A stretch of DNA of 64,000 bases from Pseudomonas cavernicola (GTDB taxonomy: Bacteria > Pseudomonadota > Gammaproteobacteria > Pseudomonadales > Pseudomonadaceae), in NCBI RefSeq assembly GCF_003596405.1, contig NZ_QYUR01000008.1, positions 744,001 through 808,000 of the forward strand, read 5' to 3'. A model generated the notes under the pieces. That model had not been told where the DNA came from. It saw only the letters and a list, made by a program, of their open reading frames with translations, and ran no database searches. A program made the position numbers and the translations under genes. Positions 5,127 through 22,537 of this stretch are shown piece after piece (position 1 is the stretch's first letter; each line of letters starts with the position of its first letter).

Positions 5127-5612
5127 CTATTTCTTTCTGGGGTCCTCCGCCGGATTGAGGTAATTGATGCCCCAGGGGCCGGTGCCGTGAATCTGAATGA
5201 TCGCCCCGTCATCACCAGTGAAGGCGAACATGGGCATGCCTGTGGGCATCATGGTGACACCGCCTGCCGGATAGGCTCTGGCTTTGGCAGGTTCGAACGT
5301 CTCGCCGATGCCCAAATGGAAGGTTCCCGACAGCACGGTGACCCGCTCGAAGATGGGATGGGTGTGGGTTGCAATCTTGGAGTTGGGTGGCAGCTTAATG
5401 CGGAAGGTGAACGGCACGGCTTCCTTCAGATCGCCTTCCAGAACGGCCATCTTGACGCCAGGTCCGATGGCGGGGGCATCGACCCACTTAACTTCGGACG
5501 GAATAATCGAAACGTGGCCTTCCATGACCGGTTCTGCTGCCAATGCCGGAGCCGCGATAAGCGCCCCTAGAGCGAGCACGGTTGAGGCTGTAATAGCTTT
5601 TGCTGCGTTCAT
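5127..5612 (-). CDS. Exported cupin-domain protein
   Basis: Protein of 161 residues with a clear Sec signal peptide (MNAAKAITASTVLALGALIAAP..., cleavage likely at ALA-AEP near residue 27), so the mature protein is periplasmic. The remainder is a single cupin barrel. Motif 1 is visible as HTHPIFERVTVLSG, with two His and a Glu as likely metal ligands, and motif 2 as the segment around YPAGGVTMMPTGMPMFAF. The start is set at 5612 because GAGGTGAAGAAA precedes it and the signal peptide begins there. Substrate and metal cannot be told from sequence. It is a single gene between hairpins and seems unrelated to its neighbours. Confidence 0.85.
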   Translation of the reverse strand: MNAAKAITASTVLALGALIAAPALAAEPVMEGHVSIIPSEVKWVDAPAIGPGVKMAVLEGDLKEAVPFTFRIKLPPNSKIATHTHPIFERVTVLSGTFHLGIGETFEPAKARAYPAGGVTMMPTGMPMFAFTGDDGAIIQIHGTGPWGINYLNPAEDPRKK

Positions 5613-5774
5613 TTTCTTCACCTCTGCGATCGAGCAATTTGCCGCCCCCTCCCAAGGCCGGTAGTGACCCCATGAAAATCCCGGCCCTAACACTCAAGCT
5701 CTAGGCTCTGTTGACGCAAGCGAACGCGCCACGCCTTGTTGGACCGCCTGCCTAGCGCTTCACCCTCACCACCA

Positions 5775-6605
5775 TTAGGAGACCCAAGCGGACTCGGTGC
5801 CGCCCGGCTTGGTGGCCGTGACTATGAGGGTTGGCATCGCGAAAGCGACCGCGCCGTCGGTCGTCACAAACGCTCGGAGCGCCTGCTCAGCTTCCTTCTG
5901 TAGCAGCTCGAACTGCGCGTCGTCGAGCATGCCGCCAAGCGTCCACACGCACGCCCGCTCGGTGGAGATCATGGATTTGATCGAGGCGAAGCGAACCGTT
6001 CCCAAGTGCTGCATGACTTTCGCCTCGGCAACCTCCGCCTCGCGACAAATGGTAAGCAACAGTTCCGGATCACCGAGCACGAAGGGCGCGCGGAACGCGT
6101 CCGCCACGCTATCGCCGAAAAGCCGTTGCAACAGCTCGGCGAGCGCGGCGTAGCCGGGCGAATGCTCGAGCGCATCGCACACGGCGACGGCCAGTCGCCC
6201 GCCCGGCCGCAGTACCCGCAGCATTTCCCGCAGGGCGGCACGCCGATCCTCGAAGAACATGAAGCCGAACTGGCTGACCACCGCATCGAAGCTTTCGTCC
6301 GGGAAAGGCAGCGCCTCGGCCCGCCCGACCTGCCACTCGACCCGCGCGCTCTTGCGCCGGGCCACCGCGAGCATCTCTTCGTTGGGGTCGAGGCCCACGA
6401 CCGCCCCGCCGGGCCCGACGATCTCGGCCGCAGCGCAGGCAAGCACACCAGTGCCACAGGCCACATCAAGCACCCGCTCACCCGGTTCTATGCCCGCCTC
6501 GGCCGCGACCCGCCGCCCCCACTGCTGAAACAGCGCCGGGACGAAAAATTCCTCATACACCTCGGCAGGCGAGCGGGTGACTCGCCCTTTTTCGCTCTTG
6601 CTCAT
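5775..6605 (-). CDS. Class I SAM-dependent methyltransferase (UbiE/type-11 family)
   Basis: Cytoplasmic methyltransferase of 276 residues. The SAM-binding motif I is RVLDVACGTGVLACAAA (about residues 43-60), motif II is GLDPNEEMLAVAR, and motif III is FDAVVSQFGFMFFEDRR, then LRVLRPGGRLAVAV. The acceptor substrate is unknown. A strong ribosome site (AAGGAGGTG) precedes the ATG. It stands alone, and the region upstream (6606-6916) shows no gene. Confidence 0.88.
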   Translation of the reverse strand: MSKSEKGRVTRSPAEVYEEFFVPALFQQWGRRVAAEAGIEPGERVLDVACGTGVLACAAAEIVGPGGAVVGLDPNEEMLAVARRKSARVEWQVGRAEALPFPDESFDAVVSQFGFMFFEDRRAALREMLRVLRPGGRLAVAVCDALEHSPGYAALAELLQRLFGDSVADAFRAPFVLGDPELLLTICREAEVAEAKVMQHLGTVRFASIKSMISTERACVWTLGGMLDDAQFELLQKEAEQALRAFVTTDGAVAFAMPTLIVTATKPGGTESAWVS

Positions 6606-10613: not shown

Positions 10614-12341
10614 TCATAGCTCTGGCCCCATGGAGAAGTGCAAGCGTATGCCGCCGTCATCATCCAGCGCATGCGCCAGATCGAGGCGCAGCGGCCCGAC
10701 CGGCGAGACCCAGCGGATGCCCAGGCCGACGCCGGTTTTCAAGGTAGGAAACTCCAACGAGCGGAAGGCGTTGCCCTGATCGACGAAAGCGGCCACTCGC
10801 CAGCGTTCGGCAATCGAGTATTGATACTCAAGGCTGCCGGCGAACACATAACGCCCGCCAATGCGGTCACCCTCCGAGTTTTCCGGCGAGAGCGTCTGAT
10901 AGTCATAGCCCCGCACGCTTTGGTCGCCGCCGGCAAAGAAACGCAAAGAGGGTGGAATTGAGCCGTAGTCATCGGTTGCCGTACCGCCCAGTTGCAGGCG
11001 GCCGAGCAAGCGATGGTTCTGCCAAAGGGTGGTCAGGCCCTTGAGCATGGCCGTGCCATACAACAGGTTGGCGTCGGAGAGCAGCCCCTCCTTGGCCGCC
11101 GAGGCGTCGAATTGCAAGCGGTAGCCGTTGTGCGGATCGATCTGATTGTCACTCTGGAGATAGGCGTAGCTGACACCGGGCATCAGCAAGTTGCTCAAGC
11201 CGTTGTCATCGCCTAAACGGTATTCCTCACGCTGAAATTTCAACGAGAGCACCTGCTGCCAGCCGCTGTCGAGTTTGCTGTGCCATTCCGGGCCAACGGT
11301 AAGGAGTCGGCTGAGGCTGTCGGTATCGGCGAACTCTTCATATTGATAGCCGCCGGCGAAGCGCAGCTTGTCAGTCAGCGGCGGATCGAGGGGAATGTCA
11401 TACCACAGGCCGATGCTTTGCCGCGGTGCCGACAGCTCCATTTCCGTACCGTAACTGTGGCCTTGTGGGTTGGCCCAGTGCCGCGTCCAGTTAGCCTTGC
11501 CACGCGGACCGACGTCCGTGGAAAAGCCCAAGCCAAGCCCCATGGTCCACGGCTTGCGCGTGCTTAGTTGCACCTGTACGGGAATTTGCTGGTTGAGCGC
11601 CTGAGCGGGCGCGGCGTCTACCCGCACCGTTTCGAAATAACCGCTGCCTTGCAGGCTCTGATAAAGCTCGGCGATCAACTCGGAGTCGTAGGCGGTATTA
11701 GCTTTGAACGGCACCATGCGCTGCAGCAACTCTTCATCGAAAGGCGCATCACCGGCGAACTTGACCGGGCCCAGCACGTAACGCGGGCCGCTGTCATAGA
11801 TCAGCTCAATGTCCGCCACGCCCCCCTCTGGGTCGATAGCCAGGCGCTGGCTGCTGAAACGACCACTGAAGAAACCGTAGCGCGAGGCCTGATTCTGGAT
11901 CAGCCGTTTGGCATCTTCATAGCTACCGTGGTTGAGCACCGCACCCGGTTTCAGTTGCGTGCTCTTGGGTAGACGAAAAGTCTTGAGCTGAGCCGCCGGC
12001 CCATCAATACGCACGGTGACATTGCGCAGGTGCACGGGCTCACCCGGCGTGATCGAAATGATCAAGCTCAGGTTCCTGCCGGTTTTGACTTCGCTGTCGA
12101 TCTGCGCCTGGTAATAACCCAGCGCCTCTGCGGCCTTACGAGCCTGCACCTCGGCCCCACGTCGAAAACGCTGCAAGGCAGCCTCATCGCGGTCGCCGAC
12201 GCCACCGACATAACCTTCAACGTTGGCTTTAAGCGTCGAATTGGCCGGTTTGATCCGCACGTCCAGCTGGCTTTGCGCCAGGGCTGCCGAGCTGATGGCC
12301 AGGAGCGCAATCGACAGCCAGATCTTTCCTTGAAAATTCAT
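10614..12341 (-). CDS. tamA: Translocation and assembly module outer-membrane protein TamA
   Basis: Omp85-family outer-membrane protein of 575 residues. The signal peptide is MNFQGKIWLSIALLAISSAALA with cleavage before QSQLDVR. Three POTRA domains follow (about residues 25-265), for example VHLRNVTVRIDG and ELYQSLQGSGYFETVRVD. The C-terminal 16-stranded barrel has the conserved RFFAGGDQSVRGYDYQTLSP (VRGY motif on lid loop 6) and a terminal strand ending FSMGPEL. The ATG at 12341 is preferred over one six codons upstream because the signal peptide begins there. A diverged copy of the first 33 codons recurs at 16824-16922 next to a second GNAT gene. Confidence 0.95.
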   Translation of the reverse strand: MNFQGKIWLSIALLAISSAALAQSQLDVRIKPANSTLKANVEGYVGGVGDRDEAALQRFRRGAEVQARKAAEALGYYQAQIDSEVKTGRNLSLIISITPGEPVHLRNVTVRIDGPAAQLKTFRLPKSTQLKPGAVLNHGSYEDAKRLIQNQASRYGFFSGRFSSQRLAIDPEGGVADIELIYDSGPRYVLGPVKFAGDAPFDEELLQRMVPFKANTAYDSELIAELYQSLQGSGYFETVRVDAAPAQALNQQIPVQVQLSTRKPWTMGLGLGFSTDVGPRGKANWTRHWANPQGHSYGTEMELSAPRQSIGLWYDIPLDPPLTDKLRFAGGYQYEEFADTDSLSRLLTVGPEWHSKLDSGWQQVLSLKFQREEYRLGDDNGLSNLLMPGVSYAYLQSDNQIDPHNGYRLQFDASAAKEGLLSDANLLYGTAMLKGLTTLWQNHRLLGRLQLGGTATDDYGSIPPSLRFFAGGDQSVRGYDYQTLSPENSEGDRIGGRYVFAGSLEYQYSIAERWRVAAFVDQGNAFRSLEFPTLKTGVGLGIRWVSPVGPLRLDLAHALDDDGGIRLHFSMGPEL

Positions 12342-12420
12342 AGCCGCGGATGCTAACACGAGCCGAGCCGCATTCCAGGAGCCTGTCTGGCAAGGGACTC
12401 TTCAGCCCCCAGAGGAGCAT

Positions 12421-12928
12421 TCAGGCACCGGCCGGCACGGCTGGTTGCGGGTTGGGATGAAAGAACACGTGCTCGATGATCGGTCCAACCGCCACCTCAC
12501 CGATCTCCTCGTAACCCTGGCGCTTGTAGAACTCCAGGTAGCGCGGATTGCCGGTATCCAGCACCACGCCTTGCGAGCCGGCATCCTCGGCGCACCAGTT
12601 GTGCAGCGCTTCGAGTAACTGCTCGCCAAGGTGTTTACCCTGAAACTCCGGGTGCACCCCCAGCAGTGGCAGCACGTGATACGGCCCCGGCGGCAGGCAG
12701 GCAAGCACCGCGTGGTGATACTCCAGATAGCGCTTGGTGCAGCGCACACCGGTAGTCAGCAGCATGCGCAACCGCCAGCCCCAGCTTTCGGTGATGTCCA
12801 ACCGCCGTTGTGGTGGCGCAATCAGCGCGAGGGCCACCAGACGATCATTAATCAACAGACCGATGGTCGGCAGTTCTTCGGCGAAATGCTGTTGCACCAG
12901 TTCGCGCATGGTGGACCGCACGCGCTGG
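12421..12928 (-). pseudogene. 5'-truncated GNAT acetyltransferase copy (left copy)
   Basis: This 508-base block is nearly identical to the last 508 bases of the intact GNAT gene at 17022-17529, with only a few differences by eye. It keeps the acetyl-CoA-binding part ([22 protein letters not shown]) but lacks the first 50 or so residues. At 12923-12928 it is fused through the shared hexamer CGCTGG to a piece of xthA. The frame stays open to 12981 only because it reads xthA backwards. It is best read as the remnant left by a deletion in one copy of a duplicated locus. Confidence 0.85.
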
Positions 12929-13265
12929 CCGACGTCGAGGCCCTCGGTTACCAGGTGCATTACCACGGACAGAAAGGCCACTACGGCGTCGCCCTACTCT
13001 CGCGCCAAACCCCGCTGGCCTTGCATAAAGGCTTTCCCGGCGATGAGGAAGATGCGCAACGGCGCTTTATCTGGGGCACCGTTTCAGCTGGTTCGACTAC
13101 CGCAGCCGGGGCTTCGAAGACGAGCCCAAGCGCGGCCTGCGTATCGATGTGATCCTGACCTCCAATGCTCTCCAGTCGCGGATCAAAGCCGCCGGCGTGG
13201 ACTACGACCTGCGCGCCATGGAAAAACCTTCCGACCATGCGCCGATCTGGCTGGAGCTGAGCTGA
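12924..13265 (+). pseudogene. xthA remnant (left copy) with internal deletion
   Basis: Two blocks of exodeoxyribonuclease III sequence. Positions 12929-13080 correspond to 17975-18126 and 13081-13265 to 18470-18654 of the intact xthA; block lengths match exactly (152 and 185 bases). The 5' end of the gene and a 343-base internal segment are missing, the latter joined at a short ACC overlap that also breaks the frame. Divergence from the intact copy looks like roughly 10 percent in the 3' block, far more than in the neighbouring GNAT block. Not functional. Confidence 0.9.
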
Positions 13266-13279
13266 AGCCCAGTTCGTAG

Positions 13280-13307
13280 GGCGGGTTAGCCAAAGCCGTA
13301 ACCCGCC
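13280..13307. repeat. GGCGGGTTA / TAACCCGCC palindrome
   Basis: Nine-base inverted repeat with a 10-nt loop just after the xthA remnant. A sister element (GTCGGGTTA / TAACCCGAC) lies at 32852-32877, so this is a dispersed palindromic repeat family. Confidence 0.6.
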
Positions 13308-13578
13308 GCACACCTTTACTGGCCGGATAACCGAGAGCAGTAGTTTTCACCCAGCCTGCTATGCCCGCGATTAGGGCGACCAACGACCATCACCGCTCCG
13401 CCATGATGCAAAAAACCAAGCAAGTGGCGCTGCGGCCTGGGTGGCATCCAGAGAAATAATCAAGATTACATACTTGCTGTAAGTACATGATTTAAAACAT
13501 ACAAAATCCTATTCTAGATTTTACTTCAAATCGGATTCAGTGCCTAAAACTGCAGTCCTGGCCGAGCCCTAGGGCAAC

Positions 13579-13596
13579 TTGGCAAGCCCCTTGCAA
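13579..13596 (+). promoter_or_regulatory. Sigma-54 (RpoN) promoter of the nitrate ABC transporter operon
   Basis: TTGGCAAGCCCCTTGCAA has the invariant GG at 13581-13582 and GC at 13593-13594, separated by exactly ten bases, as in the -24/-12 consensus TGGCAC-N5-TTGC. Transcription would start near 13606, leaving a leader of about 130 bases. AT-rich sequence lies upstream (13450-13540). No clear NtrC site was identified by eye. Confidence 0.8.
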
Positions 13597-13623
13597 TTCC
13601 TTTTTCAAGATTCTTGCGCAGCA

Positions 13624-13714
13624 CACCAACGGCGGTGGGCCGCGGATCACGGACAACGGCGTCCGCTGGATGACTCTCGTTTTGGGAGCTATCTGGCGGC
13701 GCCGTTTTTGTTTT
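13624..13714 (+). promoter_or_regulatory. ANTAR-type antitermination leader: two hexaloop hairpins plus overlapping terminator
   Basis: Hairpin P1 is CACC-AACGGC-GGTG (13624-13637). Hairpin P2 is CGGAC-AACGGC-GTCCG (13650-13665). Both have the same six-base loop with A at position 1 and G at position 4, the signature recognised by ANTAR-domain antiterminators such as NasR and NasT. The loop and 3' strand of P2 (13655-13666) can instead pair with 13696-13706 (one bulged base), with an inner CTCTC / GGGAG hairpin (13674-13688), followed by TTTTTGTTTT. This makes P2 and the terminator mutually exclusive, the known layout for nitrate/nitrite-responsive attenuation. No ANTAR protein gene is in the window. 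Confidence 0.85.
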
Positions 13715-13736
13715 GCACTCTTGAAAGGAAAACACC

Positions 13737-15020
13737 ATGTCTGATCGTGATTCGAATGACCCGCTGAACAACAGCCGTCGCCATTTCTTGAAAAAATCCA
13801 TCGCCGCCGCCGGCACCCTCGGAGGGATTGCCGCCCTGGGCCTGTCCGCGCCCAGCTTTATGCGCAGCGCCGCCTGGGCCGCCGGCTCCGACGCCCCGGA
13901 AAAAGCCGCGCTGAAGGTCGGCTTTATCCCGCTGACCGACTGCGCCTCGCTGATCGTCGCCGCCACCCAGGGTTTTGGCGAAAAATACGGCTTGAGCATC
14001 ACCCCGAGCAAGGAAGCCTCCTGGGCCGGCGTGCGCGACAAGCTCAATACCGGCGAGTTGGATGCTGCCCACGTGCTGTACGGCATGATGTACGGCGCGC
14101 AACTGGGCGTTGCCGGGCCGCAGACCGACATGGCCGTGCTGATGGGCCTGAACCAGAACGGCCAAGCCATCACCCTCTCCAAACAGCTGAAAGAAGCCGG
14201 CGTGACCAACGGCGAGCAGCTGGCCGCCCACGTGAAAAAAGGCGGCGCGCCGCTGACGTTCGCCCAGACCTTCCCTACCGGCACCCACGCCATGTGGTTG
14301 TATTACTGGCTGGCCAGCCAGGGCATCAACCCCCTATCGGACGTGAAAACCATCACCGTGCCGCCACCACAGATGGTCGCCAATATGCGCGTCGGCAATA
14401 TGGACGGCTTTTGCGTGGGCGAGCCCTGGGGCGCACGGGCGATCTTCGACAAGATCGGTTTTACCGCCACCACCACCCAGCAGATCTGGCCGGATCACCC
14501 GGAAAAAGTCCTCGGCGCCACCCGCGCCTTTATCGAGCAAAACCCCAATACCGCACGGGCCCTGATCATGGCCATCCTCGACGCCAGCCGTTTTATCGAA
14601 GCCAGCGCGGAAAACAAGAAAAGCACCGCCAAGCTGATCGCCGGCAAGGCCTACGTCAACGCTCCGGTGGACGTGATCGAGCAACGCTTTCTCGGCAACT
14701 ACGAAGACGGTCTCGGCAACAGCTGGCAGGACAAACACGCCATGGCCTTCTGCAAGGGCGGCACGGTCAACTACCCCTACCACTCCGACGGCATGTGGTT
14801 CATGACCCAGTTCCGCCGCTGGGGCCTGATCAAGGAAGACCCGGACTATGCCGCCATCGCCGGCAAAATCAACCAGACCGCGCTGTTTAGCGAAGCGGCC
14901 AGCGCCCTGCACCTGCCACTGCCGAGCAGCGTCATGCGTTCCAGCACCCTGCTTGACGGCAAGGTCTGGGACGGTTCCAACCCTGCCGCTTATGTCCAGT
15001 CCTTTGCGATAAAAGCCTGA
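13737..15020 (+). CDS. ABC transporter substrate-binding protein, nitrate type (NrtA/NasF family)
   Basis: Periplasmic binding protein of 427 residues from the NrtA/CmpA family (nitrate, nitrite or related anions). The N-terminus carries a Tat signal (SRRHFLKK, Arg14-Arg15, then a hydrophobic stretch and cleavage near AWAAG), so it is exported folded. Family stretches include VGFIPLTDCASLIVAATQGF and DKLNTGELDAAHVLYGMMYG. GAAAGGA precedes the ATG. It heads a three-gene operon with permease and ATPase. The sigma-54 promoter and ANTAR attenuator upstream support nitrate or nitrite over taurine or sulfonates as substrate. The locus lies between two copies of the GNAT-xthA segment. Confidence 0.88.
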   Translation: MSDRDSNDPLNNSRRHFLKKSIAAAGTLGGIAALGLSAPSFMRSAAWAAGSDAPEKAALKVGFIPLTDCASLIVAATQGFGEKYGLSITPSKEASWAGVRDKLNTGELDAAHVLYGMMYGAQLGVAGPQTDMAVLMGLNQNGQAITLSKQLKEAGVTNGEQLAAHVKKGGAPLTFAQTFPTGTHAMWLYYWLASQGINPLSDVKTITVPPPQMVANMRVGNMDGFCVGEPWGARAIFDKIGFTATTTQQIWPDHPEKVLGATRAFIEQNPNTARALIMAILDASRFIEASAENKKSTAKLIAGKAYVNAPVDVIEQRFLGNYEDGLGNSWQDKHAMAFCKGGTVNYPYHSDGMWFMTQFRRWGLIKEDPDYAAIAGKINQTALFSEAASALHLPLPSSVMRSSTLLDGKVWDGSNPAAYVQSFAIKA

Positions 15021-15028
15021 GGCCCGAG

Positions 15029-15880
15029 ATGAACGCATCCCTAAAACCCATGCTGCTGGAAAAAGCCACGCCCCCGGTGGCCGCGCGTCAGGCCTCGCCT
15101 GGCGCGCAGGCCTTCGCCAACGGGATCAAGGCGGTGATCCCGCCGGTGCTCGGCATCGCCCTGTTTATCGGCGTCTGGGCCTTGATCGCGGTGAAAAGCG
15201 AGGGCCTGCCCGGCCCGCTGTCCACCTGGTATTCGGCGCTGGAGCTGTTCGCCGACCCGTTCTACGACAACGGCCCGAACGACATGGGCATCGGCTGGAA
15301 CATCCTCCACTCCCTCGGCCGGGTCGGCATGGGGTTTGGTCTGGCGGCGCTGATCGGTATCCCATTGGGTTTTGCCATCGGCCGCTTCGCCTTCCTGGCC
15401 GGCATGCTCGCGCCGATCATCAGCCTGCTGCGACCGGTGTCGCCGCTGGCCTGGCTGCCGATTGGGCTGCTGGTGTTCGAGGCAGCCGGTCCGGCCTCGA
15501 TCTGGGTGATATTTATCAGCGCCATCTGGCCGATCATCCTCAACACCGCCGCCGGGGTTGCCAGCGTGCCGCAGGACTATCTGAACGTGGCCCGCGTGCT
15601 CAAGCTCAGCGAATGGAAGGTGCTGACGCGCATCCTCTTTCCCGCCGTCCTGCCGCACCTGATGACCGGCATCCGCCTGGCCATGGGCATCGCCTGGCTG
15701 GTGATAGTCGCCGCGGAAATGCTCACCGGCGGCATCGGCCTGGGTTTTTGGGTCTGGGACGAGTGGAACAACCTCAACGTCGAACACATCCTGATCGCCA
15801 TCATCGTCGTCGGCCTGATCGGCCTGCTGCTCGAACAAGCGCTGCTGCTGATCGCCAAACGCTTCGATTACGCCAACTGA
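15029..15880 (+). CDS. ABC transporter permease, nitrate type (NrtB/NasE family)
   Basis: Inner-membrane permease of 283 residues with about six hydrophobic segments after a 35-residue cytoplasmic N-terminus. The ATPase-coupling EAA loop is visible around DYLNVARVLKLSEWKVLTRI-LFPAVLPHLMTGIRLAMGIAW. It begins 8 bases after the binding-protein stop and belongs to the same operon. Family resemblance covers NrtB, SsuC and TauC; the nitrate assignment comes from the partner protein and the leader. Confidence 0.88.
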   Translation: MNASLKPMLLEKATPPVAARQASPGAQAFANGIKAVIPPVLGIALFIGVWALIAVKSEGLPGPLSTWYSALELFADPFYDNGPNDMGIGWNILHSLGRVGMGFGLAALIGIPLGFAIGRFAFLAGMLAPIISLLRPVSPLAWLPIGLLVFEAAGPASIWVIFISAIWPIILNTAAGVASVPQDYLNVARVLKLSEWKVLTRILFPAVLPHLMTGIRLAMGIAWLVIVAAEMLTGGIGLGFWVWDEWNNLNVEHILIAIIVVGLIGLLLEQALLLIAKRFDYAN

Positions 15881-15888
15881 AGCATTTC

Positions 15889-15955
15889 TGTAGGAGCGAG
15901 CTCTGCTCGCGATCATCAACGCGAAAAGCGATCGCCAGCAGAGCTAGCTCCTACA
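15889..15955. repeat. BIME: inverted pair of REP elements inside the transporter operon
   Basis: TGTAGGAGCGAGCTCTGCTC at 15889-15908 faces GAGCTAGCTCCTACA at 15941-15955, separated by about 32 bases. It fills the 90-base gap between permease and ATPase genes, where it could stabilise or attenuate the mRNA. Confidence 0.8.
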
Positions 15956-15970
15956 AACCGGAGAAGGAAC

Positions 15971-16762
15971 ATGGAAAAATTCGTTGAGCTGACCCACGTC
16001 AGCAAAGATTTCGACACCAAAAAAGGCCGCTTCCAGGCCCTGGCGGACGTCAACCTGAGCATCGCCAGCGGCGAATTCGTGACCCTGATCGGCCATTCCG
16101 GCTGCGGCAAATCCACCTTGCTCAACCTGATCGCCGGCCTGCTCGAGGCCAGCGACGGCGGGCTGATCTGCAACGGCCGGGAAATCGACGGCCCCGGTCC
16201 GGAACGCGGCGTGGTGTTCCAGAACCACAGCCTGCTGCCCTGGATGACCTGCTACGGCAACGTCCACCTGGCGGTGGAAAAGGTCTTCGGCGCCAAGGAA
16301 AACAAGGCCCGGCTCAAGGCTCGCAGCGAAGCCGCGCTGAACCTGGTCGGCCTGGGTCACGCCAGCCACAAGCACCCGAACGAAATCTCCGGCGGCATGA
16401 AACAGCGCGTCGGCATCGCCCGCGCCCTGGCCATGGAGCCCAAAGTCCTGCTGATGGACGAACCCTTCGGAGCCCTCGACGCCCTGACCCGTGCCCACCT
16501 GCAGGACGAACTGCTGCGCATCGTCGGCGAAACCCACAGCACGGTGGTGATGGTCACCCACGATGTGGACGAAGCCGTGCTGCTGTCCGATCGCATCGTG
16601 ATGATGACCAACGGCCCGGCGGCGACCATCGGCGATATCGTCAAAGTGGGCCTGGAAAGACCCCGTGATCGCCTGGCCCTGGCCAATGATCCGCGGTATC
16701 ACCACTATCGGACGGCGGTGCTGGAGTTCTTGTATCAACGCCAGCAAAGACCGGCGGCCTAA
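15971..16762 (+). CDS. ABC transporter ATP-binding protein, nitrate type (NrtD/NasD family)
   Basis: Cytoplasmic ATPase of 263 residues. Walker A is GHSGCGKST (about residues 42-50), the Q-loop is VVFQNHSLLPW, the signature is ISGGMKQRVGIARAL, Walker B is VLLMDEPFGALD, and the switch His is in VTHDVDEAV. It has a single nucleotide-binding domain, so it is NrtD/SsuB-like and not a fused NrtC. GGAGAAGGAAC precedes the ATG. It is the last gene of the operon and is separated from the permease by a BIME. Confidence 0.9.
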   Translation: MEKFVELTHVSKDFDTKKGRFQALADVNLSIASGEFVTLIGHSGCGKSTLLNLIAGLLEASDGGLICNGREIDGPGPERGVVFQNHSLLPWMTCYGNVHLAVEKVFGAKENKARLKARSEAALNLVGLGHASHKHPNEISGGMKQRVGIARALAMEPKVLLMDEPFGALDALTRAHLQDELLRIVGETHSTVVMVTHDVDEAVLLSDRIVMMTNGPAATIGDIVKVGLERPRDRLALANDPRYHHYRTAVLEFLYQRQQRPAA

Positions 16763-16823
16763 GTGTGAAAAATAGCCCTAGCGGCCCGTAGGGTTGATTC
16801 GTTGACCTCTGGTGGTAGCTGTA

Positions 16824-16922
16824 GGCTGGCATGGTCCGCACGTCCAGCTGGTCTTGCGCCCGTGCTGCCGAGCAGGTGATCAGCAGCACCAGCGGCAGCC
16901 CGTATCTGCCTTGAACTGTCAT
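16824..16922 (-). pseudogene. Diverged fragment of the tamA 5' end
   Basis: Read on the minus strand from the ATG at 16922 it gives MTVQGRYGLPLVLLITCSAA then RAQDQLDVRTMPA. It aligns without gaps to the tamA start MNFQGKIWLSIALLAISSAA then LAQSQLDVRIKPA, at roughly two-thirds identity. The sequence upstream of the ATG also resembles that of tamA. Similarity stops after about 33 codons. The fragment marks the left end of the right-hand copy of the tamA-GNAT-xthA segment and is too diverged to be a recent duplicate of the local tamA, so it may come from another strain. Confidence 0.75.
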
Positions 16923-17021
16923 GGACCCGATACTAACGCAACCCTAGAGCGGCACGGCAGTCTCGAGGGCTGGCTAGAACGCATTTTTACAGAGGGTGGT
17001 ACCTGTTGACTTAAGCGTGAC

Positions 17022-17678
17022 TCAGGCACTGGCCAACACGGCTGGTTGCGGGTTGGGATGAAAGAACACGTGCTCGATGATCGGTCCAACCGCCACCTCG
17101 CCGATCTCCTCGTAACCCTGGCGCTTGTAGAACTCCAGGTAGCGCGGATTGCCGGTATCCAGCACCACGCCTTGCGAGCCGGCATCCTCGGCGCACCAGT
17201 TGTGCAGCGCTTCGAGTAACTGCTCGCCAAGGTGTTTACCCTGAAACTCCGGGTGCACCCCCAGCAGTGGCAGCACGTGATACGGCCCCGGCGGCAGGCA
17301 GGCAAGCACCGCGTGGTGATACTCCAGATAGCGCTTGGTGCAGCGCACACCGGTAGTCAGCAGCATGCGCAACCGCCAGCCCCAGCTTTCGGTGATGTCC
17401 AACCGCCGTTGTGGTGGCGCAATCAGCGCAAGGGCCACCAGACGATCGTTAATCAACAGACCAATGGTCGGCAGTTCTTCGGCGAAATGCTGTTGCACCA
17501 GTTCGCGCATGGTGGACCGCACGCGCTGGTCGAAGCCGGGGCGTTCAGACTCGAACAGATAGCCAAAGGTAGGTTCGTGACGGTAGGCGTGGTACAGCAA
17601 CGAGCGCGCTTCGTGGATGAAGCTGCTATCGAGCAGTCGAACTTCAGCGGGTGCAACAGCAACAGACGATGCAGGCAT
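17022..17678 (-). CDS. GNAT-family N-acetyltransferase (intact copy)
   Basis: Acetyltransferase of 218 residues. The GNAT fold is supported by the acetyl-CoA loop [20 protein letters not shown] (motif A, Q/R-x-x-G-x-G/A type), and by the following GVVLDTGNPRYLEFYKRQGYEEIGEV. The acetylated substrate is unknown. The start at 17678 is chosen for AAGAGGT just upstream; the longer frame reads through a tandem repeat. It is divergent from xthA (164-base gap), the usual Pseudomonas arrangement beside tamA. A truncated near-identical copy lies at 12421-12928. Confidence 0.85.
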   Translation of the reverse strand: MPASSVAVAPAEVRLLDSSFIHEARSLLYHAYRHEPTFGYLFESERPGFDQRVRSTMRELVQQHFAEELPTIGLLINDRLVALALIAPPQRRLDITESWGWRLRMLLTTGVRCTKRYLEYHHAVLACLPPGPYHVLPLLGVHPEFQGKHLGEQLLEALHNWCAEDAGSQGVVLDTGNPRYLEFYKRQGYEEIGEVAVGPIIEHVFFHPNPQPAVLASA

Positions 17679-17694
17679 GCACAGTGACCTCTTC

Positions 17695-17736
17695 TTGTTA
17701 TGTGGTGCCCACCCCTTGCTATGTGGGGCCCACCCC
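17695..17736. repeat. 21-bp imperfect tandem repeat in the GNAT/xthA promoter region
   Basis: Two adjacent 21-base units (17695-17715 and 17716-17736) of the form TTGYTATGTGGKGCCCACCCC differ at two positions. The repeat lies in the divergent promoter region and was not retained in the left copy of the locus. Confidence 0.75.
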
Positions 17737-17841
17737 CACGTTAGCACCGCCCCGCCAGAGCTGCCAGATGACTGGCCGCGCAGTCGAACAATCGGCTAGC
17801 ATCGCAAGCTCTCAAGGTAGAAAGCCCAGGACCCGCCGCTC

Positions 17842-18654
17842 ATGAAGATCGTCTCCTTCAACATCAACGGCCTGCGTGCCCGCCCACATCAACTGGCGGC
17901 GCTGATCGAGAAGCATCAGCCGGACGTGATCGGTCTACAGGAAACCAAAGTTTCTGACGAGCAGTTCCCGCTGGCCGACGTCGAGGCCCTCGGTTACCAG
18001 GTGCATTACCACGGACAGAAAGGCCACTACGGCGTCGCCCTGCTCTCACGCCAAGCACCACTGGCGCTGCATAAAGGCTTTCCCGGCGATGAGGAAGATG
18101 CGCAACGGCGTTTCATCTGGGGCACCTTCGCCGACGCCAATGGCCAGCCGGTTACCGTAATGAACGGCTACTTCCCGCAGGGCGAAAACCGCGACCACCC
18201 AACCAAGTTCCCGGCCAAGCAACGCTTCTATGCTGACTTGCAGGCCTTGCTGGAAGGCCAGTTCCAACCCAACCAGTCGCTGGTGGTAATGGGCGATATC
18301 AACATTTCCCCGGAAGACTGCGACATTGGTATCGGCGAGGAGAACCGCAAGCGTTGGCTGAAGACCGGCAAATGCAGCTTCCTGCCGGAGGAGCGTGAGT
18401 GGCTGGCCACCCTGAAAAACTGGGGCCTGGTCGACAGTTTTCGGCAGATCTACCCGGACGTGGCCGACCGCTTCAGTTGGTTCGACTACCGCAGCCGGGG
18501 CTTCGAAGACGAGCCCAAGCGCGGCCTGCGCATCGATGTGATCCTGACCTCCAGCGGCCTGCAGCCGCGGATCAAAGCCGCTGGCGTGGACTACGACCTG
18601 CGTGCCATGGAAAAACCCTCCGACCATGCGCCGATCTGGCTGGAGTTGGGTTAG
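17842..18654 (+). CDS. xthA: Exodeoxyribonuclease III
   Basis: DNA repair enzyme of 270 residues with 3'-5' exonuclease and AP-endonuclease activity, cytoplasmic and Mg-dependent. Catalytic residues of the EEP fold are all visible: Asn7 (SFNINGLR), Glu34 (GLQETK), Asp152 and Asn154 (MGDINIS), Asp in LRIDVIL, and His262 (SDHAPIW). Length equals the family norm. It is divergent from the GNAT gene. A remnant copy with two deletions lies 4.9 kb upstream; this copy is complete. Confidence 0.96.
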
Positions 18655-18730: not shown

Positions 18731-19303
18731 ATGGAGCCGAAACCCGGCGGACAGCGTTTCTGTCTCTATGCGCCAGAGCAACTCGATAGCGTCATGGAGG
18801 CGATGGCCAGGCAGACAATCGCCCTCCTCTCCCCTCAACGGCAAACGGTACTGATCGGCATTCTAAGGCGCGGCGAACCGCTGGCGCGCATGCTGCAGCA
18901 GCGCCTGGTGCAACAGTTCGGGCTGCCCGAGTTGCCGCTCTACCCGCTCAAACTGAAGCGCTACGCCGATGACCTGACGCTGCTGCATGCCAAAACCGCG
19001 CTGACCGAGAACCCGCTATTGGCGGCACTGGATCTGCCCCGAACCCGCCTGCTGCTGGTCGACGACGTCTTGTATGAGGGCCATTCCCTGTTACGCGCGA
19101 GCAGCTACTTGGCGCAACTGGGCGCCAACGAGATCCGCACTGCGGTTTTAGTGGATCGCTGCGTGTGCAAACTGCCGATACAGGCCGACATCACCGGGGT
19201 GCGCCTGCAGGTGGCGCCTAGCGATATCATCGAATGCAATGTGCCGCCCTACGAGGCGGAGTTTCGCATCGATGTGCTGCGGCGCGGACCTCATTTGGGC
19301 TGA
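18731..19303 (+). CDS. Phosphoribosyltransferase-domain protein
   Basis: Protein of 190 residues with the type I PRTase fold. The PRPP-binding loop is TRLLLVDDVLYEGHSLLRA (about residues 104-122), and the region LIGILRRGEPLARMLQQRL matches the start of a PyrR/uracil-type PRTase. Its substrate cannot be told. The ATG at 18731 is preferred because GGGGGA lies just upstream; a TTG 30 bases earlier also opens the frame. Its 3' end overlaps the convergent hydrolase gene by 13 bases. Confidence 0.82.
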   Translation: MEPKPGGQRFCLYAPEQLDSVMEAMARQTIALLSPQRQTVLIGILRRGEPLARMLQQRLVQQFGLPELPLYPLKLKRYADDLTLLHAKTALTENPLLAALDLPRTRLLLVDDVLYEGHSLLRASSYLAQLGANEIRTAVLVDRCVCKLPIQADITGVRLQVAPSDIIECNVPPYEAEFRIDVLRRGPHLG

Positions 19304-19965
19304 GCTTGCAGGTGGGTCAGCAACCAACTACCGGCCAGTTCCGCAACCACCTCGAGCTTGCCCGGCTCCTCGAACAGATGGCTCGCTCCCGGCACTACCT
19401 CCAAGCGCTGCGGGCCTTGCAGTTGCCGGGCGGACTCGCGGTTCAGCGCCAGCACGGTGTCATCCCACTCGCCCACGATCAGCAGAGTGGGTGCCTTGAC
19501 CTGTTGCAGTGCCGTCCCGGCCAGATCGGTGCGGCCACCGCGTGAAACCACCGCCGCGACATCGCTCGCCCGCTCTGCCGCCGCCTTCAGGGCCGCGGCG
19601 GCGCCGGTACTGGCGCCGAACAGACCGATCGGCAGCTGGCGTAACTCGTCGTCGTGGCGTAGGTGGTCGATCGCGGCTAGCAGCCGCCGCGTCAACAGCG
19701 CGATATCGAACCGAAACTCACGGCTGAGCATATCGATGCGATGCTCGTCCTCGGTCAACAGATCGAGGAGCAGCGTGGCAAGGCCGAGGTGATTGAGGTA
19801 GTCCGCCACCATTCGATTGCGCGGGCTGAACCTGCTGCTCCCGCTGCCATGGGCGAACAGCACGATTCCGCTGGCGCCGGCAGGCAGGGCCAAGTCGGCG
19901 TCCAACTCGGCATCCGCCAGGGGCAAGCTCAGACTCCGGTGTTGCAGCCACGGTTCTTGATTCAT
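19291..19965 (-). CDS. Alpha/beta hydrolase (dienelactone-hydrolase-like)
   Basis: Predicted cytoplasmic hydrolase of 224 residues. The nucleophile elbow is GLFGASTGAAAAL (Ser in G-x-S-x-G), the acid is likely Asp in VGEWDDTVLA, and the catalytic His is in PGASHLFEEP. An oxyanion-type motif FAHGSGSSRFSPRN precedes. The natural substrate is unknown. Similar small hydrolases are often found beside phosphoribosyltransferase genes, as here on both sides, but the functional reason is not clear. Confidence 0.85.
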   Translation of the reverse strand: MNQEPWLQHRSLSLPLADAELDADLALPAGASGIVLFAHGSGSSRFSPRNRMVADYLNHLGLATLLLDLLTEDEHRIDMLSREFRFDIALLTRRLLAAIDHLRHDDELRQLPIGLFGASTGAAAALKAAAERASDVAAVVSRGGRTDLAGTALQQVKAPTLLIVGEWDDTVLALNRESARQLQGPQRLEVVPGASHLFEEPGKLEVVAELAGSWLLTHLQAQPK

Positions 19966-20121
19966 GTCGATAGGCTCCCATTAAGGAAGTTCTGAGCAAG
20001 TCATCCTGTCGTGTTCGGAACGCACCGAGTCCGCTACACGCCCGGACTCGACACACGACAAACCTAAGACTCAGGTCTTCGATTTGTAGGCAAAACATCC
20101 CTGCGGGCTGCGCACTCAGGG

Positions 20122-20796
20122 CTATTGCGCAGCGTCACGCTGTTCCCTCCGCCAAGCCTGGCTCAGCAAGGTCTTCACCTCCTGATCCGTGGTCTGGGCG
20201 AAATCGAGGTACCACTGGCCAATGGCAAAGAAGGGCTCAGGGGAGAGCGGACAGATCAGTTGATCGACCAAAGGACGCAGCATCGCCAGCGTCTCCACAG
20301 GCGCGACCGGTACGGCGACTATGACGCGCGCCGGTGCCTGTTGGCGTACCGCCGCTATCGCCGCACGCATGGTGGCGCCGGTCGCCAGTCCGTCATCGAC
20401 CAGTATCACCCGTTGCCCGGCCAAGGCTGGCGCGGGACGATCGCCCCGATAGGCCAGGTCACGGCGCTGCAGCTCCAGAACTTCATCTTGCACGACCGCT
20501 TCGATGGCCGCTGGGGGTATGTGCAGGTGACGGATGACATCATCGTTCAACACTTGCACGCCGCCGCGGGCAATGGCGCCCATCGCCAACTCCTTATGAC
20601 CGGGCGTACCAAGTTTGCGCACCAGCATCAAATCCAGCCGCAGGGCCAGTGCGCTGGCAATTTCATAGGCGACCGGCACGCCGCCCCGTGGCAAGGCCAG
20701 CACGAGCACATCGGCTTGCTCGCGCCACGCCGCCAACGCAGCGGCAAGAGTCTGACCCGCTTCCACCCGGTCACGAAACGGAATATCCCACTTCAT
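20122..20796 (-). CDS. Phosphoribosyltransferase family protein
   Basis: Protein of 224 residues with a type I PRTase domain. The N-terminal substrate loop is VLALPRGGVPVAYEIASAL and the PRPP loop is RVILVDDGLATGATMRAAI (about residues 122-140). This subfamily is usually annotated only as a phosphoribosyltransferase and is often linked to stress hydrolases. The start at 20796 has AGGAG upstream; the frame extends 58 codons further without a ribosome site. It is divergent from the PstS-OmpA gene. The substrate is not known. Confidence 0.82.
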   Translation of the reverse strand: MKWDIPFRDRVEAGQTLAAALAAWREQADVLVLALPRGGVPVAYEIASALALRLDLMLVRKLGTPGHKELAMGAIARGGVQVLNDDVIRHLHIPPAAIEAVVQDEVLELQRRDLAYRGDRPAPALAGQRVILVDDGLATGATMRAAIAAVRQQAPARVIVAVPVAPVETLAMLRPLVDQLICPLSPEPFFAIGQWYLDFAQTTDQEVKTLLSQAWRREQRDAAQ

Positions 20797-20968
20797 GTCT
20801 TCGGCTCCTGAGCGTCCACACATTTTACTATGCGCCTGATTTTCGCTGTTTGCCTTGCTTCCTATTGATTTCTCAGTGGCAATAAGACCCTGCACTGTCA
20901 CGAAAGCGCCATGGATTCGTCTTATTCTGCGCGGCACTGTCCTCTTATCCATATAAGGTGCTTGTCGC

Positions 20969-22351
20969 ATGCCGCGCGCCCTGGCTGTTCTTGAACGCGA
21001 TACCTGGAGTCGTACTGCAACTTTCTTGCTGCTAGGTTTCCTCTGCTATGCCCTGCCCTGGTCGGTGTTCGCCGCCCTGCCGATTCCGCCGCAGGGCATG
21101 CCGGCGCTGCGCATCCAGGGCTCCAACACCATCGGCGCCAAGCTTGGCCCGGCGCTGGTCAAAGGCTTGCTGGAGCAACAAGGGCTGGGCGCTATCCGCC
21201 AAGAGGCCACGGATACGGAAAACGAGCAGCGGCTGGTCGGCCAAACCAGCGATGGCCGTACCGTGATGATCGATGTCGCCGCGCATGGTTCGGGGACTGG
21301 CTTCGTCGCGTTGAAAGACGGTAGCGCCGAGCTGGCCGCCTCCTCACGGCCGATTAAAGATAGCGAAGCGCAGGAGCTGGTCGCACTCGGCGATCTCAAA
21401 AGCCGCAATGCCGAGCAAGTGATCGCCATCGATGGCCTGGCGATCATCCTCCACCCGAGTAACCCCCTCGCCGCACTTAGCACCGCGCAATTGGCACAGA
21501 TCTTCGCTGGCGAGGTGAAAACCTGGGAAGCGCTGGGTGGACGCGGCGGAGCGATCCATCTATACGCCCGCGATGACAATTCCGGCACCTACGACACCTT
21601 CAAAGAACTGGTGCTGGCGGCCCATGGCAAAAGCCTGGCGGCGGGCGCCAAGCGCTATGAGTCCAGCGAACAGCTGTCCGATGCGGTCAGCCAGGATGCA
21701 CAAGGCATCGGTTTTATCGGCCTGCCCTACATTCGCCAAGCCAAAGCGCTGGCGATTGCCGATGGTGAGTCGCAAGCGATGCCGCCATCCATCAGTCTGA
21801 TCGCCACCGAAGACTATCCGCTGTCGCGCCGGCTGTTCTTCTATAACCAGCCCGACGTGCAAAATCCCTGGGCCCAGGCCCTGGTGCAGTTCGCCCACAG
21901 CCCGCGTGGCCAAGCCATCGTCGCGCAAAGCGGGTTTATCGCGCAGACGGTGCAAGCCATCAAGGTCACGCCGACGCCGGAGATGCCCCAGAGCTACCAG
22001 CAGCTGGCCCGTGAGGCGCAGCGGCTGTCGGTGAACTTCCGCTTCCAGGAAGGCAGCGCCACCCTCGACAACAAGGCCCAGCACGATTTACAGCGGGTAC
22101 TGGACTACCTGAAAAGCCAAGACAAGCTGCATCGACAAGTAGTGCTGATTGGGTTTGGTGATCCTAAAGCCGATGAGGCCCGCGCGGCCTTGCTGTCGAA
22201 ACTGCGCGCGATGACGGTACGCCGTGAACTGGCCAAGCAAGGGGTGATCTTCCGTGACATCACAGGTTTGGGCGACGAGTTGCCGGTGGCCGCGAATAGC
22301 GCGGAGAATGGCCGGCTGAAGAACCGTCGGGTGGAAGTCTGGGTCTACTAG
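20969..22351 (+). CDS. PstS-like phosphate-binding domain fused to an OmpA-like domain
   Basis: Exported protein of 460 residues. An N-terminal hydrophobic segment (about residues 17-36) acts as signal or anchor. The middle (about 45-330) is a PstS-family fold with phosphate-loop-like elements IQGSNTIGAKLGPAL, AAHGSGTGFVAL and ARDDNSGTYDTFK. The C-terminal 110 residues are an OmpA-like peptidoglycan-binding domain (FRFQEGSATLDNKAQHDLQR through ENGRLKNRRVEVWVY). The fusion suggests a phosphate sensor or store tethered to the cell wall and not a soluble transporter subunit, since no pst genes are near. The domain order is clear; the role is inference. Confidence 0.85.
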   Translation: MPRALAVLERDTWSRTATFLLLGFLCYALPWSVFAALPIPPQGMPALRIQGSNTIGAKLGPALVKGLLEQQGLGAIRQEATDTENEQRLVGQTSDGRTVMIDVAAHGSGTGFVALKDGSAELAASSRPIKDSEAQELVALGDLKSRNAEQVIAIDGLAIILHPSNPLAALSTAQLAQIFAGEVKTWEALGGRGGAIHLYARDDNSGTYDTFKELVLAAHGKSLAAGAKRYESSEQLSDAVSQDAQGIGFIGLPYIRQAKALAIADGESQAMPPSISLIATEDYPLSRRLFFYNQPDVQNPWAQALVQFAHSPRGQAIVAQSGFIAQTVQAIKVTPTPEMPQSYQQLAREAQRLSVNFRFQEGSATLDNKAQHDLQRVLDYLKSQDKLHRQVVLIGFGDPKADEARAALLSKLRAMTVRRELAKQGVIFRDITGLGDELPVAANSAENGRLKNRRVEVWVY

Positions 22352-22423: not shown

Positions 22424-22484
22424 GGGCGCGCTGCTAAAGTGCGCCCATGTGACGCCGGGCCCCTCTGGCGGTGAGTCTTCACCG
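22424..22484 (+). promoter_or_regulatory. Structured leader upstream of terC
   Basis: Two strong hairpins lie in the 187-base gap before terC. The first is GGGCGCGCT / AGTGCGCCC with loop GCTAA (22424-22446). The second is CGGTGA / TCACCG with loop GTCT (22469-22484). TerC genes are often under a manganese (yybP-ykoY) riboswitch, but its conserved GGGGAGUA element was not seen here, so the class is left open. Confidence 0.45.
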
Positions 22485-22537
22485 TGATGTCGGAGTCACT
22501 GTTGATTCGTCAACTTTCGACATTAAAGGAGGGGCTC

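Follow-up and report, generated by a model that had tools for sequence, protein, structure and literature searches.

In the genome of Pseudomonas cavernicola, an operon for a nitrate-type ABC transporter, nrtABC, lies between two unequal direct copies of a segment carrying a GNAT gene and the exonuclease III gene xthA. The window analysed here comprises 64,000 nucleotides of contig NZ_QYUR01000008.1 (positions 744,001 to 808,000 of the forward strand) in a 5.63-Mb genome, hereafter G000, and the gene order across the region is tamA-GNAT-xthA′-nrtABC-tamA′-GNAT-xthA. We favour the view, with a probability of roughly 0.6, that the region is the scar of a single horizontal gain from a close Pseudomonas relative, in which a homologous crossover was followed by homogenisation and by decay of the left copy.

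The left copy (12421-13265) and the right copy (17022-18654) have the same order and orientation on the two sides of nrtABC. In ungapped comparisons (counts in Table 1), they differ at 1.4% of positions in GNAT, at 5.9% and 9.2% in two successive pieces of xthA, and at 29 of 106 positions (27%) at the 5′ end of tamA. The left copy is short of 445 bases, with a join at a 6-base repeat (CGCTGG), and of a further 343 bases, with a join at a 3-base repeat (ACC); both of its xthA pieces remain open in the xthA frame. A preliminary description of this DNA had already recognised the two unequal copies around the transporter, their block lengths of 508, 152 and 185 bases and the losses at both joins, all of which hold exactly; its proposed deletions in a redundant copy are supported, and the uneven divergence that it described is also real, with tamA falling a little under the one third that it had put forward. 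Chance can be ruled out as a source of this similarity, since the blocks extend over hundreds of bases with 91 to 99% identity in a conserved order. The tamA, GNAT and xthA copies make up the direct repeats of at least 25 bases in the 6-24 kb interval. Elsewhere in G000, a search in which 40 of 54 candidates were scored gave no match to the left segment beyond those in the window. The divergence between the copies is like that between alleles of two species, as might be expected if the assembly had joined two strains or loci, but this explanation deserves very little credence: two clean deletions at short repeats have degraded the left copy, the divergence between the copies reaches about 10%, the window is within a 978-kb contig of a genome assembled in 8 contigs with 1.3% contamination, and the nitrate-assimilation (nas) cluster of this genome lacks nrtABC, so that the operon is not a second copy put in the wrong place.

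The similarity between the copies is concentrated in a near-identical tract, 12436-12995, which extends from about 15 bases inside the 3′ end of GNAT to 67 bases into xthA and contains 4 differences in 560 positions, as against 26 in 270 in xthA beyond it (Fisher p = 6e-10). Its borders are sharp, and such a sharply bounded tract fits gene conversion. This process had been proposed for GNAT from the outset, although its extent has to be redrawn, as the last GNAT codons are outside the tract and the start of the aligned xthA is within it. In comparisons of the left copy (L), the right copy (R) and the closest relative (G114), one change within the tract is L-specific and three are R-specific, and either copy differs from G114 at 39-40 of 508 positions; from the 4 tract changes set against these 39-40, the age of homogenisation would be roughly a tenth of that of the split from G114. 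Since the tract spans the deletion join, the first deletion in the left copy is probably later than the homogenisation.

Beyond the tract, the three 3′ parts of xthA differ from each other by 6 to 10% (L-G114 16, R-G114 23 and L-R 26 differences in 270 positions) and look like alleles of three related species. Of the differences between L and R, 18 of 26 are at third codon positions (p = 2e-4 for the comparison with one third), and lineage-specific changes number 9 in L and 16 in R, with no excess in the left allele. The divergence between the alleles, combined with the preponderance of third-position differences, favours import of an allele over decay in place, with some relaxation possible in the left allele.

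Table 1. Features of the nrtABC region and its duplicated flanks, in window coordinates
Feature	Position	Strand	Evidence
tamA, intact, taken as native	10614..12341	-	Omp85/TamA-POTRA domains; best NCBIfam match TamA, 536 bits, below cut-off of 625
Left GNAT copy, 3′ 508 bases only	12421..12928	-	501/508 identical to 17022-17529
Left xthA piece 1, gene start lost	12929..13080	+	143/152 identical to right copy, 17975-18126; differences 0/67, then 9/85
Left xthA piece 2, reaching stop codon	13081..13265	+	168/185 identical to right copy, 18470-18654; 177/185 to G114
Sigma-54-like promoter element	13579..13594	+	Same kind of element in 34/34 related loci scanned
Two short AACGGC-loop hairpins, ANTAR/NasT-type target	13624..13665	+	CACC-AACGGC-GGTG and CGGAC-AACGGC-GTCCG
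nrtA, nitrate-type binding protein with Tat signal	13737..15020	+	PF13379 (NMT1_2), E 3e-103; TAT signal model 21.2 bits, cut-off 16.7
nrtB, permease	15029..15880	+	TIGR01183, 238 bits, cut-off 209
nrtC, ATPase	15971..16762	+	TIGR01184, 340 bits, cut-off 292
tamA′ start fragment, 33 codons	16824..16922	-	77/106 identical to tamA 5′ end (12243-12348) over 16824-16929; translation
Right GNAT copy, intact	17022..17678	-	GNAT domain; 93% to G114
Right xthA copy, intact exonuclease III	17842..18654	+	NF008733, 486 bits, cut-off 280; 58/813 differences from G114

Comparison with other members of the genus places the single-copy state outside G000. Genomes were taken in draws of 398, 398 (centred on G114) and 313, which appear nested, the later ones bringing no new close relative, and G114 is the closest genome found (93%, among 398 genus genomes). 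The common order in 30 related loci is mdtA-tpx-tamB-tamA-GNAT-xthA-pst-terC, and each of the 30, that of G114 among them, has a single GNAT and a single xthA. In G114 the locus reads tpx-GNAT-xthA-pst, and type-1 nrtABC was not found in that genome, which yielded nrtA hits of 63 and 37% only and, in its nas cluster, only a 70% relative of nrtC. The empty-site comparison recommended in the preliminary description thus yields a related genome with one copy and no insert, as Campbell-type (single-crossover) integration would have it, with the caveat that G114 also lacks tamAB, no tamA match being found in its genome. G250, which has tamAB at the locus, is likewise without nrtABC (nrtA hits of 63%, NasS-like, and 27%; no nrtC match at E 1e-60). 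As G000 groups with G250 in the tamAB tree (0.999), the left flank is taken as native; tamAB would then be native to the G000 lineage and lost in G114, which we adopt without regarding it as certain. Import of tamAB, considered in view of its absence from G114, was set aside on account of the same tree rather than excluded. Both tamA and tamB are missing at the locus in 11 of the 30 related loci. A whole-genome TamA search in 8 genomes found none in 5 and only a 20% match in a sixth, a pattern of patchy loss of the TAM system across relatives.

The transporter was matched at E 1e-300 or better in 31 of 398 genus genomes, G000 included, and the places listed in the other matching genomes are 78-84% identical. 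Among its closest relatives, those that carry a name belong to Pseudomonas. For NrtA, the best match in a contig search was 86% (best 80 loci kept), and the closest proteins, at 94%, belong to clusters P0001 and P0002 (protein search in which the 8000 candidates sharing most words were scored). Homology with related transporter loci begins at about 13580, at the sigma-54-like element, and stops with nrtC, and in none of 38 such loci (L006, L007, L035-L043 and L116-L142; flanks of about 0.5 to 10 kb, some genomes fetched twice) is tamA, GNAT or xthA present in the flank. These observations bear on an old tandem duplication, in which tamA′-GNAT-xthA-nrtABC would have been doubled in an ancestor, one nrtABC lost, the copies left to drift, GNAT later homogenised, and the tpx-GNAT interval deleted in G114. 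One G114 deletion would then take out tamAB, the left copy, nrtABC and tamA′ together, and the absence of tamAB from about a third of related loci indicates that deletions are common there. We nevertheless regard this history as improbable: nrtABC is beside xthA in 0 of the 38 transporter loci, G250 also lacks nrtABC, change is not in excess in the left xthA pieces, and the right xthA, predicted to be closest to G114, is matched or surpassed in this respect by the left.

Under the preferred reading of a single horizontal gain, the incoming segment, from a closely related Pseudomonas, would have comprised nrtABC with its own promoter and leader plus tamA′-GNAT-xthA, and would have recombined with the resident tamA-GNAT-xthA locus. 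The preliminary account, right in its main lines, had envisaged an imported transporter bringing its own flank, which agrees with the single-copy state in G114 and the allele-like divergence of xthA. Homologous integration alone would not place nrtABC between the copies; it has to be supplemented either by circularisation of the molecule and one crossover or, if the DNA was linear, by one illegitimate end. The simplest route would be circularisation of the incoming DNA and a single homologous crossover, which would leave the transporter between two direct copies, one GNAT-xthA lying after native tamA and the other after donor tamA′, and import with one crossover would thereby explain the observed gene order. 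For E. coli, PMC3240628 reports that linear DNA circularises and then undergoes a single crossing-over. Gene conversion, at integration or later between the direct repeats, would have homogenised about 1 kb, measured on the right copy, in the region of GNAT and the beginning of xthA, and the redundant left copy would have lost its two segments at the short repeats. We infer import, circularisation and conversion, with its timing, from the arrangement and divergence of the copies.

It is also conceivable, if rather unlikely, that a linear nrtABC-tamA′-GNAT-xthA molecule was integrated by homology at its right end and joined non-homologously just after native xthA, in which case the left copy would be native and the right copy foreign, perhaps together with the phosphoribosyltransferase genes at 18731-20970. 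The segment 18655-20916, directly after the right copy, is likewise extra relative to G114 and has no match in the 30 related loci; the 3′ part of left xthA is slightly closer to G114 than its right counterpart, and the left tamA-GNAT gap seems, by eye, more similar to that of G114. Units of a dispersed intergenic repeat (13270-13371) occupy the left junction between xthA′ and the transporter: when 13266-13579 was used as a query, short matches, all within 13270-13371, were obtained in G000 (21 other places), G114 (6) and G250 (1). The same E. coli study (PMC3240628) describes linear DNA with one homologous and one illegitimate end. Such an import would, however, require two joins in place of a single crossover, the last GNAT codons that resemble G114 are those of the right copy, and nothing was found that ties the phosphoribosyltransferase genes to the transporter. 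The segment 18655-20916 consists of genes for a phosphoribosyltransferase, an alpha/beta hydrolase and a second phosphoribosyltransferase between xthA and a pstS-like gene; in G114 the two genes that flank it here are about 170 bases apart, with about 50 bases before pst shared. Cupin and methyltransferase genes at 5127-6605, between tpx and tamB, also have no match in the 30 related loci.

A mobile element was considered and rejected: the window contains no tRNA, profiling of nine genes in the 10.6-22.4 kb interval revealed no recombinase, and none of three inverted pairs (6-24 kb) marks both ends of the insert. In a plasmid collection, no place covers 80% of the transporter. A search of open-licence PMC papers for single-crossover scars with conversion found nothing specific among the papers listed.

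Several observations weigh against a single gain from a close relative. The donor was not found, and the gene order around the P0001 and P0002 NrtA proteins could not be read; the search for a donor matching the right tamA fragment, recommended at the outset, gave only 77% over 56 bases in G287 among the 30 related loci. The tamA′ fragment itself has diverged beyond xthA, about as far as the tamA start of G250 has from that of G000, from which it follows that the donor was mosaic or that tamA′ is a fast-changing relic. Raw tamAB identity is higher between G000 and G287 (70%) than between G000 and G250 (68%), contrary to the tree. Polarity at the tract edges is mixed: to the right, L matches G114 at 16 sites and R at 9 (p = 0.23), while the last GNAT codons favour R as the G114-like copy at three sites and the tamA-GNAT gap favours L by eye. 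Of the changes specific to L, just 5 of 9 affect third positions, a proportion that, taken alone, would also fit relaxed constraint, and the GC content of the insert is unremarkable.

By its family profiles, the transporter is of the nitrate-type NrtABC kind, with permease and ATPase above curated cut-offs and a binding protein of the NMT1_2 family. The element at 13579-13594 is one that we take to be sigma-54-like. The leader downstream has two stems with hexaloops bearing A at position 1 and G at position 4, as in ANTAR targets, which lie ahead of a terminator; here the second hairpin is inside a predicted terminator-like stem at about 13649-13711. All 34 related loci scanned keep the dual-hairpin layout, and their stems show paired changes such as CACC/GGTG to CGCC/GGCG. 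The leader fold has a z-score of -4.5, with 1 of 200 shuffles as good. The leader fits the dual-hairpin motif as defined in PMC3369931, and binding of NasT to a nas leader is described in PMC3795266. At Rfam gathering thresholds the leader had no match, the sole match being terC RNA (RF03067) at 22447-22502, before the terC gene. Between nrtB and nrtC (15881-15970) is a palindromic repeat similar in appearance to Pseudomonas REP sequences.

In most relatives the transporter is associated with nas genes: among 14 loci searched (L035-L043, L174-L176, L181 and L221), 12 have it near nasS, nasT or alaC, or near lyase, narK, kinase and nirB genes, none of these being found near it in L043 and L181, and L036 shows the full alaC-nrtABC-lyase order. 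The nas cluster of G000 (contig C8, 38-57.5 kb) consists of nirB, kinase, narK, lyase, alaC, nasT, nasS and acnB, with no nrt trace except NasS and with the lyase and alaC frames 163 bases apart. Its NasT-like protein has an ANTAR domain (about 46.8-47.4 kb; PF03861, 62 bits), and nasS-nasT is on the same contig as the operon, about 709 kb away. With a NasT-target-like leader and nasS-nasT in the genome, the operon probably works at its present site, and from the sequence we infer its function and its control by the NasT of this genome. G114 has a different nitrate-type ABC system between alaC and narK (L219, 14582-17844; nrtC 70%, binding protein 37%), near the usual type-1 nrtABC place of many relatives, and G169 is similar in this respect. 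As a tentative extension, held with well under even confidence, operon relocation may have been caught midway: nrtABC would have been lost from the nas cluster and then reacquired from a sister species at a site about 709 kb away, with NasT control in trans by way of a portable promoter and leader, and with a scar in which the point of crossing-over, the conversion tract and the earliest deletions are still displayed.

Several known systems offer parallels. Campbell-type integration leaving a merodiploid likewise places an insert between direct copies, each possibly mosaic, of which one is later lost; here the event would have taken place in nature, apparently between related species, its product is partly erased and marked by a homogenised tract, and its circular intermediate is supposed. 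Homology-facilitated illegitimate recombination also anchors foreign DNA by homology on one side and joins it without homology on the other, but a duplicated flank remains here, and only the linear import needs this mechanism. A sharply bounded near-identity tract of about 1 kb in otherwise divergent copies is what gene conversion between direct repeats produces, with nothing unusual noted. The transporter agrees with NrtABC/CmpABC-type systems under NasS-NasT control in its families, sigma-54-like site, dual-hairpin leader and the presence of nasS-nasT in the genome, and differs in that the operon is outside the nas cluster, adjoining xthA.

Read as the scar of a single horizontal gain, the region clearly illustrates a known process and an ordinary way of gaining genes, which is unusually easy to follow here: for many acquired genes the traces of arrival are absent, whereas in this case they are still legible in partly duplicated genes, a homogenised tract and deletions at short repeats. 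A further suggestion from this case is that control by distant regulators may be retained by an operon whose sigma-54-like promoter and NasT-type leader are self-contained.

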